Positions 57,626 to 64,000 of a stretch of DNA of 64,000 bases are shown here, piece by piece. Under the pieces are notes generated by a model. The model had not been told where the DNA came from and did no database searches. It saw only the letters and a program-made list of their open reading frames with translations. The DNA is taken from the NCBI RefSeq assembly GCF_000013205.1, contig NC_007775.1, positions 2,104,501 through 2,168,500 of the forward strand, in the 5' to 3' direction. The stretch is from Synechococcus sp. JA-3-3Ab. Its GTDB lineage: Bacteria > Cyanobacteriota > Cyanobacteriia > Thermostichales > Thermostichaceae. Position 1 is the first letter of the stretch. Each line of letters starts with the position of its first letter. Position numbers and translations under genes: made by a program.

Positions 57626-58172
57626 TTAGCGAGGTGGGATCAAGACGGTGTCGATGACGTGGATGATGCCGTTGGCAGCTTGAATATCCGCGGTGATCAC
57701 GTTGGCGTTGTTGATGCGAATCCGTCCGCCCTCAAGAAGGGTGACAGTGACAGGGGATCCCTGCAAAGTCGTCACCTGCTGGCCGGATCTGAGGGCGCTG
57801 GAGGGGGCCAAGCCGGGAACCACGTGGTAGGTGAGAATGCGCACCAGCTCTGCCCGGTTCTCAGGCCGCAGCAAGGCTTCCACCGTGCCAGGGGGCAAAG
57901 CGGCAAAGGCAGCATTGGTGGGAGCAAAGACCGTGAAGGGGCCTTCTTGCTGCAAAGCCCCCACCAAGCCCGCTGCCTGCAGGGCCGTCACCAAGGAAGT
58001 TAGGGTTAGCAGCGGCAACGGCGACGATATTGGGCAGCGGCGTAGGGCTGGGAGAGAGAGTCGGAGTGGGCGTCGGCAGGGCAATGGCTGTATCGTTGCT
58101 GGAACTGTCACAACCGACCAAGGCCAAGCAGGTGGCCGCCGTCAGTCCAAGGGTGAGGGCTTTGCGATTCAT
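57626..58172 (-). pseudogene. Fasciclin-domain lipoprotein with frameshift
   Basis: ATG 58172 begins a lipoprotein leader (ATCLALVGC) and a PTPTPTLSPSPTPLP linker leading into NIVAVAAANPN. The fasciclin domain then continues in another frame: LVTALQAAGLVGALQ, GPFTVFAPTNAAFAAL, LVRILTYHVVPG and ANGIIHVIDTVLIPP. Skipping one T within TTCC at 57995-57999 restores N-P-N-S-L-V-T-A-L-Q, so a single-base insertion separates the halves. FAS1 domains mediate adhesion at the cell surface. Whether this is decay, phase variation or a sequencing error is undecided. Confidence 0.8.
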
Positions 58173-58329: not shown

Positions 58330-60093
58330 ATGAACGGGATCGGGATCCCATCTTGGCGGCGGCAACTGCGTCGTTGGCTGCCCTGGGCTGCCCTGCTGCT
58401 GCTCCTGGTGGCCATTGGCTACTGGGTGGGCCCCCGACCTCGGCCTTATCCCCAAGAGCCAGAGCTGCCCACCCTGGCCCCTCTGCCGCAGCACCCCCGC
58501 ATCCGGGTGGCGTTCAACCAAAGCCGCGAGAGCACCTATCGGGATCCCTATCGCCAGGTCTATCGCTACGGCTACAACCTGGAGGAGCTGATCCTCTCCC
58601 AGATCCGCTCCGCCCAGCAGTCGCTGGATGTGGCGGTGCAAGAGTTGAACCTGCCCCTGATTGCCCAGGCCCTGGCCGAGCGGCGCCAGGCCGGGATCCC
58701 GGTGCGGGTGATTACCGAAAATACCTATGTGCGGGCCTGGCACCAGCTCACCCCTGACCAAGTGCGGGCGTTGGACGAGCGCAGCCGCCGCAAGTACGAG
58801 GAGTACCGCAACTTGGTGGATGTGAACCGGGATGGGCGCCTCTCCCCAGAAGAGATCGCCACGCGGGATGTCTATGCCCTGCTCGATGGGGGGCAGGTGC
58901 CCTGGCTGGACGACACCGCCGACGGCTCCAAGGGCAGCGGCCTGATGCACCACAAGTTTGTGATTATCGACGGGCAGCGGGTGCTGACCGGATCGGCCAA
59001 TTTTACCCTCTCCGATATCCACGGGGATTTCGATGCCCCCGGCAGTGTGGGCAACGCCAACCACCTGCTGCTGCTGGATAGCCCCGAGCTGGCTCGCCTC
59101 TACACCGAGGAGTTCAACCTCATGTGGGGAGATGGGCCGGGAGGGTTGCCCGACAGCCGCTTCGGGGTGCAAAAGCTCAAGCGTCCCCTGGAGACGGTTT
59201 ACCTTGGCGATGCCATCGTGGGGGTACATTTTTCTCCCAGCAGCCGCTCCCTGCCCTACGAGGCCACTTCCAACGGCATCATCGCGGCCACCCTGGCCCA
59301 AGCGCAGCAGCAGGTGGATCTGGCCCTGTTCGTCTTTACGGACTCAGGCATTGCCAACCAGCTCAGGCAACTGCGCCAGGAGCGCAACGTGCTGATCCGC
59401 GGCGTGTTCGATCCCGGCTTTGCCTTTCGCGACTACAGCCGCACCCTGGAGATGTGGGGGCTGCTGCTCCCGGACGAAAACTGCCGGGTGGACGCGGCCC
59501 GCCTGCCTTGGACAGTGCCCGCTTCATCCGTGGGCGTGCCCAACCTCGCCCCGGGAGACAAGCTGCACCACAAGTTCGCCATCGTCGATCCCGGCACTCC
59601 TCAGGCCACGGTGATCACCGGATCCCACAACTGGTCAATGGCGGCCAACCACATCAACGACGAAAACCTTTTGATCATCCGTAATGAGCGGGTGGTGGAT
59701 CACTTTGTGCGCGAGTTCGAGCGGCTCATTGCCGAGGCCCGCTTTGGCCCCAGCCGCCGCCTGCAGCAACAGGCGGAAGAGAGAGCCCGCCTCTGCCCCA
59801 GCCCTGTCCCCGTCGCCCTCTCCTCATCTGAAGCAGAGCCGGAGCTGCTGGAAGTCGAGGTGATCTCCGTTCCTGACAGGGGATCCCCTTCCCAGCCCGC
59901 TACCCCGCAAGCTTCCCGCGTGAACTTAAACACCGCCACCGCAGCAGAGCTGCAGCAGTTGCCCGGCATTGGCCCGGCCCTGGCGCAGCGCATCATCGAG
60001 GCCCGTCCCTTTTCCTCCTTGGAAGATCTACAGCGGGTCAAGGGCATCGGGCCGGCCCGGATTGAGCAACTGCGGGATCGGGTCACCTGGTAG
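58330..60093 (+). CDS. Phospholipase-D-like protein with EF-hand and ComEA-like HhH
   Basis: ATG 58330 has GGAGGGGAGAAAGGGG upstream. The 587-residue product has a membrane anchor (about 17-33), then a PLD-fold with two HKD motifs: His207-Lys209-Asp214 and His413-Lys415-Asp420. Between strands before the first HKD is an EF-hand loop, residues 164-175 (DVNRDGRLSPEE with Asp164, Asn166, Asp168, Glu175). The C-terminus (530-587) is a helix-hairpin-helix pair of the ComEA type (VNLNTATAAELQQLPGIGPA, then GIGPARIEQL). Two HKD motifs and a DNA-binding-like tail fit a membrane-anchored, possibly calcium-binding nuclease; lipase activity is the alternative. Confidence 0.85.
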   Translation: MNGIGIPSWRRQLRRWLPWAALLLLLVAIGYWVGPRPRPYPQEPELPTLAPLPQHPRIRVAFNQSRESTYRDPYRQVYRYGYNLEELILSQIRSAQQSLDVAVQELNLPLIAQALAERRQAGIPVRVITENTYVRAWHQLTPDQVRALDERSRRKYEEYRNLVDVNRDGRLSPEEIATRDVYALLDGGQVPWLDDTADGSKGSGLMHHKFVIIDGQRVLTGSANFTLSDIHGDFDAPGSVGNANHLLLLDSPELARLYTEEFNLMWGDGPGGLPDSRFGVQKLKRPLETVYLGDAIVGVHFSPSSRSLPYEATSNGIIAATLAQAQQQVDLALFVFTDSGIANQLRQLRQERNVLIRGVFDPGFAFRDYSRTLEMWGLLLPDENCRVDAARLPWTVPASSVGVPNLAPGDKLHHKFAIVDPGTPQATVITGSHNWSMAANHINDENLLIIRNERVVDHFVREFERLIAEARFGPSRRLQQQAEERARLCPSPVPVALSSSEAEPELLEVEVISVPDRGSPSQPATPQASRVNLNTATAAELQQLPGIGPALAQRIIEARPFSSLEDLQRVKGIGPARIEQLRDRVTW

Positions 60094-62246: not shown

Positions 62247-64000
62247 CTACCTCGCCATCAAAACGCCGGTGGAAGGTGCCGAAGAGGCTGGTTGCAGCAG
62301 TTGCCGCAGCTTTTGGATCAGCTCCTGTTCCTGGAAGGGCTTGGAGAGGTAGGCGCTGGCTCCCAGCCGCTGGGCCAGTTGGCGGTGTTTCTCGCCACTG
62401 CGGGAGGTGAGCATGACCACGGGAAGCTGGTCATACAGGGGGTGGGCACGAATCTGGGCCAGCAAGCCAAAGCCATCCAGCCGCGGCATTTCAATGTCGG
62501 TAATCACCGCTCGGATGGGAATTCCTCTCTGCAAGTGCTCGAGGGCCTCTTGTCCGTCGCGAGCCTGTTCAACCCGGAACCCTGCTCTTTCTAGGGTCAT
62601 GGCCAAGAAGCGGCGCACGTTGACCGAATCTTCCACCACCAGCAGGGTGGGCTGGGCGGCAAACCTGGGCTGGGGAAGGGGATCCCTTGCCGACTGACAG
62701 GGCTGATCCCGCTGGGCGAGCAGCCAGCTCAAGAGGGCAGGCGGATCCACGAAAAGAGCGATTCGCCCATCGGCCAAAACCGTACAGCCGGAGAATCCCG
62801 ACGGCAGAGGCAGACCTCCCTCCACCGGGCGCAGAGTTACCTCTTGCTCCCGCCAAAAGCGATCCACCAACAGGCCATAGGGCCGGTTGTCTTCTACCAC
62901 CAGCAGCACCACAGGTCGGTCGAGAAGGGGGGTCTCGTCAATTTCCCGGCGAGGCTGCCAGCGCGCGAAGCGAAACCAGTGACCCACAGGAATTAAAGGG
63001 ATCTGCTCCCCTTCCCAGAGAAAGGAATCGGCAGGCAACTGCGGGGGGATAAGCAATTCTTCCACTGCGTTGGCCGGAAAAGCCAACATCAACCCCTGGC
63101 ATTCTGTCAGCAGCACGCGGGTGACGCTCAAAGAAACGGGCAGAGTGAGGGTAAACAGCGTGCCCCGTCCCGGCCAAGATTCCACCTGCACCTGGCCGCC
63201 AATTCGTTGCAGGTTGGTGCGTACCACGTCTAGACCCACTCCCCGTCCAGATAGCTCGCTGACTCGCTCGGCGGTGCTGAAGCCCGGCTGGAAGATCAAC
63301 TCCAGCAGCTCCTGGGAGCTGGCCTCAGCCAGGTCGGCAGCGGAAAACCCTATCTGCAAGGCGCGGGCCCGGATTTTATCCAGACAGATCCCTGCCCCAT
63401 CGTCTCGCACCGTGATCAGAGTGCGGTTGCCCCGTTGGCTGGCGGCAATTTCGATGAGGCCCTTGGCCGGCTTGCCCTGGGCCAGGCGGGTGTCTGGAGC
63501 CTCGATGCCGTGGTCAAAGGCGTTGCGCACCAAGTGCAACAAGGGATCCGCCAAGGCCTCCAAAATCGAGCGCTCGATTAGGGTGGATCCCCCCAAGACC
63601 CGCAGCTCCACGGGCTTGCCATGGGCTAAGCTCAGCTCCCGCAGCGCTCTGGGGAAGCGATCCGTCAAATCCGATAGAGGCTGCATGCGCACCTGGTCGA
63701 GACGGGTTTGCATTTGCCTGGAGAGGCGGCTGAGCTGGCGGGCGCTGCCTTCGGTCTCCTGCAGGGTGGTGTCGATATCGTGGGTTACCTCATCAATTTG
63801 CACAACGGTTTCCATCACCTCTTGGGTCAGCAGGTGCATCTCTCCATAGCGATCCATCTCCAAGAGGTCAAAGGTATCGGCCAAGGTCAGGCCGGGATCC
63901 CCTTCTTTTTTCAAGAGCACAGAAGCAGGCACGGTGGCAGCGACGCGGTCGTAGCTGCTGCGCAGGCGGCTGTTGGTTTCTTCTAGAGTGCGAACCCGCC
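62247..64000 (-). CDS. CheA-like hybrid histidine kinase (5' end beyond window)
   Basis: The frame stays open through the right window edge. From the visible N-side: a dimerisation helix (RQLSRLSRQMQTRLDQVRMQPLSDLTDRFPR), the H-ATPase boxes (LLHLVRNAFDHGIEAPDTR, VRDDGAGICLDKI, LSGRGVGLDVVRTN, GRGTLFTLTLP), a CheW-type domain and a C-terminal receiver with Asp in AVITDIEMPRLDGFG and TSRSGEKHR. This is the PilL/PixL/ChpA type layout; an Hpt domain should lie upstream outside the window. It phosphorylates a CheY-like partner for motility. Confidence 0.9.
   Translation of the reverse strand, partial: RVRTLEETNSRLRSSYDRVAATVPASVLLKKEGDPGLTLADTFDLLEMDRYGEMHLLTQEVMETVVQIDEVTHDIDTTLQETEGSARQLSRLSRQMQTRLDQVRMQPLSDLTDRFPRALRELSLAHGKPVELRVLGGSTLIERSILEALADPLLHLVRNAFDHGIEAPDTRLAQGKPAKGLIEIAASQRGNRTLITVRDDGAGICLDKIRARALQIGFSAADLAEASSQELLELIFQPGFSTAERVSELSGRGVGLDVVRTNLQRIGGQVQVESWPGRGTLFTLTLPVSLSVTRVLLTECQGLMLAFPANAVEELLIPPQLPADSFLWEGEQIPLIPVGHWFRFARWQPRREIDETPLLDRPVVLLVVEDNRPYGLLVDRFWREQEVTLRPVEGGLPLPSGFSGCTVLADGRIALFVDPPALLSWLLAQRDQPCQSARDPLPQPRFAAQPTLLVVEDSVNVRRFLAMTLERAGFRVEQARDGQEALEHLQRGIPIRAVITDIEMPRLDGFGLLAQIRAHPLYDQLPVVMLTSRSGEKHRQLAQRLGASAYLSKPFQEQELIQKLRQLLQPASSAPSTGVLMAR

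Follow-up and report, generated by a model that had tools for sequence, protein, structure and literature searches.

What is the role of a membrane protein that carries a phospholipase D (PLD) type enzyme, an EF-hand and a ComEA-like HhH tail in one chain? Such a protein of 587 aa is encoded at 58330..60093 (+ strand; ATG start, stop at 60093) of the window, the whole stretch of 64,000 nucleotides from Synechococcus sp. JA-3-3Ab that was analysed. A first-pass annotation had proposed a calcium-regulated surface nuclease involved in DNA processing or uptake. Our analysis suggests that the gene is probably comA (comEA) of the cyanobacterial natural-transformation machinery, with a PLD nuclease that would cut one strand and an EF-hand that would be structural. 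The ORF was the sole full-length match in the complete genome of 2,932,766 bp and is therefore single copy. A mobile-element or phage origin finds little backing in a gene that is single copy and retained throughout the phylum. No known competence genes adjoin it. The neighbouring divergent gene codes for a Fasciclin-domain protein (57629-58111, - strand). A CheA-like hybrid kinase (HATPase_c, CheW and receiver; 62250-63932, - strand), of the type found in type IV pilus or phototaxis signalling, lies about 2 kb downstream.

Pfam searches with the protein found PLDc_2 in two stretches (E 1.7e-36) and HHH_3 at residues 528-586 (E 3.6e-21); the EF-hand model (EF-hand_5, at 162-176) stayed below the cut-off (E 0.0096). 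All features of the protein given here lie on the + strand. As the first-pass annotation had claimed, the protein has two full HKD motifs, H207-x-K209-x4-D214...GSxN and H413-x-K415-x4-D420...GSxN, which match the HxK(x)4D(x)6GS pattern expected twice in the nuclease branch of the PLD superfamily. The first motif, HHKFVIID...GSAN, spans residues 207-224 (58948..59001; PF00614 at 204-226), with H207, K209, D214 and N224 invariant. The second, HHKFAIVD...GSHN, spans residues 413-434 (59566..59631; PLDc_2 at 319-466), with H413, K415, D420, G431, S432 and N434 invariant. The membrane anchoring also stands, in the form of one N-terminal hydrophobic helix: residues 16-34 (58375..58431), the most hydrophobic 19-mer, are the lone clear hydrophobic segment of the protein and would serve as a signal anchor with the remainder in the periplasm. 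A lipobox or a hydrophobic N-terminus was present in 151 of 163 relatives, with the lipobox replacing the anchor in many. The protein is better read as inner-membrane-anchored and periplasmic than as the surface protein first proposed, and other family members resemble lipoproteins.

A flexible linker (residues 490-527, 59797..59910; pLDDT under 50 at 500-502 and 504-527) connects the nuclease part to the ComEA-type HhH domain (residues 528-586, 59911..60087). What had been called an HhH pair is one HHH_3 domain with two hairpins, LPGIG and VKGIG; both GxG hairpins of a ComEA-like HhH receptor are present. The tail matched PDB 2duy, a ComEA-related protein, with E 3e-15, and the protein was the only one in the genome with HHH_3 above the cut-off. 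The curated ComEA model TIGR01259 scored 59.9 bits against a cut-off of 152, and over the HhH region only, which argues for a PLD protein with a ComEA-type tail and not a standard ComEA. ComEA of Gram-positives and Thermus (PDB 8dfk, 8dss and 2duy) likewise has a C-terminal HHH_3 domain but no nuclease, whereas the JA-3-3Ab protein has the HhH fused to a PLD nuclease domain. The combination of an anchor, a putative periplasmic PLD endonuclease domain and HhH in a single chain fits the published description of cyanobacterial ComA/ComEA (PMC7690421).

The EF-hand is a helix-loop-helix inserted in the first PLD half (residues 150-179, 58777..58866). Its 12-residue predicted calcium loop, DVNRDGRLSPEE (residues 164-175, 58819..58854), lies between two helices and has fitting ligands at positions 1, 3, 5 and 12. 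When searched with the PROSITE EF-hand pattern, the loop DVNRDGRLSPEEI at 164 matched, and about 0.0016 matches would be expected per shuffled protein. Among the 160 long frames of the window, the 587-aa protein was the only match. Pattern fit, conservation and the modelled helix-loop-helix all bear out the canonical EF-hand loop at 164-175 that had been noted from the sequence. A pattern search of the protein found no second loop, which leaves a single unpaired one; calcium sensors usually have paired EF-hands.

To follow the loop through the family, we aligned 163 proteins that represent most cyanobacterial lineages; the homologues came from 52 named loci and from searches that covered 291 cyanobacterial genomes as well as further sets. 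Position 1 of the loop was D in 158 and position 12 was E in 160 of the 163, the remainder being deletions or a Vibrio protein, and every cyanobacterial member possessing the loop kept both. Only D or N occurred at position 5, and nearly all sequences had N or D at position 3. The ligands at 1, 3, 5 and 12 fitted in 157 of the 159 sequences not scored as loop-deleted, 133 of them also with glycine at position 6; one of the two misfits, L203, carries T at position 3, and the other is the Vibrio protein, which lacks the loop and is misaligned there. Positions 1 and 12 had zero entropy, the same as the catalytic H, K and D, and the non-ligand positions 2, 4, 7, 10 and 11 varied freely. In a 30-sequence alignment, D164 and E175 were among the invariant columns. 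A clean loss of the loop was seen in four cyanobacterial proteins only (L125 and L114-L116). The first-pass proposal would have been refuted had close homologues failed to keep the loop; its conservation in fact extends throughout the phylum.

The Vibrio protein (WP_040122507.1) is encoded on a mobilizable plasmid of Vibrio coralliilyticus (L155:4881-6332), where 'mobile mystery' genes adjoin it, and horizontal transfer of the family is possible. It is 38% identical over the double-PLD core but is secreted, has a tail that is vaguely HhH-like at most, and lacks the entire EF-hand insert. Because of this last difference, the EF-hand would most simply be a cyanobacterial insertion into an older double-PLD protein.

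An AlphaFold2 model built from 30 sequences had a mean pLDDT of 88 and a pTM of 0.79. It contained a helix at 8-33 that covers the anchor, the two EF helices at 150-163 and 173-179 (pLDDT about 90), a disordered linker at 500-527 and a confident helical HhH tail. A Foldseek search of the PDB placed PLD3 and PLD4 at the top (E about 1e-16, TM 0.6 by target length), followed by bacterial phospholipase D and other PLD enzymes including phosphatidylserine synthase. The PLD3 entries among these matches describe 5' exonuclease activity on nucleic acid. Like the JA-3-3Ab protein, human PLD3 and PLD4 have two HKD motifs in one chain and are membrane-anchored, and they act on ssDNA; however, identity is about 14%, they carry neither EF-hand nor HhH, and they are lysosomal. 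The nearest named nuclease by sequence was NucT of Helicobacter pylori (PDB 6ehi), a membrane-associated, periplasmic PLD-superfamily nuclease linked to transformation (PMC5714352). NucT differs in having a single PLD domain (162-residue chain) without EF-hand or HhH, whereas the JA-3-3Ab protein has two HKD motifs in one chain.

The HhH tail was present in 99 of the 163 family members, all of which keep D1 and E12, as do 59 of the 64 tail-less members, among which we presumptively count the S. elongatus-type protein. Parsimony on a tree of the PLD core requires ten or more changes of the tail label, of which four are imposed by branches with good support; the PLD and EF parts are retained. 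This points to the PLD+EF unit as the conserved core and to the HhH as detachable. About 40% of the aligned family is without the tail, so it is not essential to the core function. In two genomes with a tail-less PLD protein, short lipoproteins of 123-135 aa with a ComEA-like HhH were found (L229 and L221, minus strand). Such a separate HhH lipoprotein in addition to a tail-less PLD protein, in at least two Microcystis-type relatives, is possibly a split version of the fused gene. A further family of cyanobacterial proteins has two HhH domains in 180-259 aa, some with membrane segments (L216, L217, L224, L220 and L226).

Next to the architecture, the relation to Synechocystis sp. PCC 6803 ComA/ComEA (slr0197) is of importance, and here we compared via sister species. 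Genus g46 was identified as Synechocystis by a PsbU over 90% identical to PDB 7n8o_U, the organism behind which we take to be Synechocystis. PLD, EF and HhH occur in one gene in all five g46 genomes, with a full-length match, and all 12 genomes of its sister genus have PLD and HhH matches. Other HHH_3 frames in two g46 genomes were too short for slr0197 (142-182 aa), and one long HHH_3 frame there gave a 26-residue partial match unlike ComEA. Small HhH proteins (135-aa lipoproteins, double-HhH proteins of 180-259 aa, PsbU, DprA and Tex) were also considered as the true ComEA and set aside, as those found in two g46 genomes are too short for slr0197 or unlike ComEA. Since the g46 genomes combine the three parts in one gene and the other HHH_3 proteins of two of them are too short or unlike ComEA, slr0197 is most likely the PLD-EF-HhH gene, and the gene studied here is probably its orthologue in JA-3-3Ab.

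It has previously been shown that slr0197, an ORF extending beyond 844 bp and annotated comEA, abolishes gene transfer when knocked out (PMC10667661). The knockout is transformation-deficient yet motile, and the family was described as having "DNA-binding and endonuclease domains" (PMC7690421). Anabaena all3087 was named as an slr0197 orthologue (PMC3976300). Like slr0197, the PLD-EF-HhH protein is encoded by a long ORF, sister species in the Synechocystis genus have its parts in the same order, and it probably belongs to this described competence family. In the accessible literature, including that on slr0197, we found no mention of an EF-hand in this family, and an earlier mention is possible; a search of the literature joining ComEA and phospholipase D in cyanobacteria found nothing.

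We then turned to ComEC, the channel with which such a nuclease would work. The ComEC of JA-3-3Ab consists of DUF4131 and Competence domains, and Lactamase_B gave no match in any of the seven cyanobacterial ComECs scanned (JA-3-3Ab and six others). The HxHxDH metal-binding motif of the nuclease domain was missing from all 20 cyanobacterial ComECs, drawn from across the phylum, that were aligned with E. coli YcaI; YcaI itself, as a control, had the motif (HEHLDH) and matched Lactamase_B with E 2e-23. In a published survey, 'DUF4131 + Competence' without Lactamase_B is the main ComEC type in Cyanobacteria (PMC6299819). The loss of the metal-binding motif in all 20 ComECs examined is new here, and no explicit mention of its pairing with the PLD family was found in the accessible literature. 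From these alignments cyanobacterial ComEC looks nuclease-dead, and with 20 of 20 ComECs lacking the motif the PLD protein is a good candidate for the missing strand-degrading nuclease. By analogy with pneumococcus, we infer that cyanobacteria would need such a separate nuclease and that the PLD protein is the best candidate for it. In Streptococcus pneumoniae, the ComEC nuclease domain is also thought to be inactive, and EndA degrades the strand (PMC12455585). The proposed role, a separate membrane nuclease beside a ComEC with an inactive nuclease domain, is alike in both, but the fold of EndA is of the beta-beta-alpha-metal type (DRGH) and bears no relation to PLD.

The PLD protein is retained by nearly all photosynthetic cyanobacteria: clear homologues were found in about 264 of the 291 cyanobacterial genomes, a count that leaves out six genomes with HhH-only matches; the protein is absent from 27 (21 without a match and these six). 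ComEC is lacking in 29 genomes, and 18 genomes lack both, compared to about 2.7 expected, counts that for a few unlisted genomes rely on subtraction. Most co-absences are in small f3 genomes, of which 18 have both, 15 have neither and one has ComEC only. ComEC occurs without the PLD protein in a handful of near-complete genomes (e.g. G142, G178 and G240). The co-loss supports a link to uptake without proving it: it concerns largely one picocyanobacterial family, and genome streamlining could explain it.

The wide distribution could also be expected of a general periplasmic nuclease, NucT- or PLD3/4-like, that serves nutrient salvage or clears extracellular DNA and is not specific to transformation. 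The protein occurs in a great many cyanobacteria, and transformability is known for few of these; its closest folds are PLD3/4; about ten losses or gains of the HhH tail left the PLD and EF parts in place; and NucT is tied to purine salvage as well as transformation (PMC5714352). We nevertheless regard this explanation as unlikely, as the slr0197 knockout lost transformation while remaining motile (PMC7690421) and a role in uptake agrees with both the ComEA-type tail and the co-loss with ComEC. It is still less probable that the protein acts in uptake essentially as a receptor that binds DNA, its catalytic site doing minor trimming while another nuclease degrades the strand. ComEA elsewhere is essential without any nuclease part, and H. 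pylori is only modestly affected when NucT is inactivated (PMC5714352). Against this, the HKD residues are invariant throughout the family, tail-less members included, and ComEC in cyanobacteria looks nuclease-dead.

A similarly low probability is given to the EF-hand as a working calcium switch, by which calcium of the periplasm or medium would turn the ComA nuclease on or off. If true, DNA uptake of the phylum would be gated by calcium via the nuclease standing in for the dead nuclease domain of ComEC. The chemistry of PLD nucleases is metal-free, and for this reason and because NucT works in EDTA a part of the EF-hand in catalysis is unlikely. NucT was assayed with 1 mM EDTA present (PMC5714352). 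The predicted calcium site is more likely structural than catalytic or regulatory, because the loop is single and unpaired and the compartment is expected to be calcium-rich; calcium in the periplasm is expected to keep the site filled. Of the first-pass proposal, the role in DNA processing or uptake is thus well supported by the probable ComA identity, the ComEC co-occurrence, the closest folds and the ComEA-type tail, whereas the 'calcium-regulated' part is not, given the activity of NucT in EDTA and the likelier structural role.

Finally, a phospholipid-acting membrane enzyme (phospholipase D or cardiolipin-synthase type) with the HhH as a structural tail is very improbable: two HKD motifs and a membrane anchor are found in lipid enzymes too, and the fold matches include phospholipases and phosphatidylserine synthase, but the best fold matches are ssDNA nucleases, the best named family is the nuclease NucT, a ComEA-type HhH domain is fused to the enzyme and, provided that the slr0197 link holds, a relative is needed for DNA uptake.

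As the ComA protein that we favour, it would be anchored in the inner membrane and have most of its chain in the periplasm, where the HhH tail would hold incoming double-stranded DNA like ComEA. Together, the two HKD motifs would make up a single active site of PLD type at which one strand is cut or degraded, and the single strand would then pass through ComEC, whose own nuclease domain is without metal ligands in cyanobacteria. The EF-hand would bind one calcium ion and support the fold of the inserted helix-loop-helix and of the first PLD half, outside the chemistry. Which nuclease makes the single-stranded DNA in cyanobacterial transformation is not settled in the reviews consulted. The present analysis offers a concrete candidate for the strand-degrading nuclease, a PLD protein with an almost invariant EF-hand that is retained along with ComEC. 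Transformability is often the bottleneck in work with cyanobacteria, which are major producers and serve as hosts in biotechnology.
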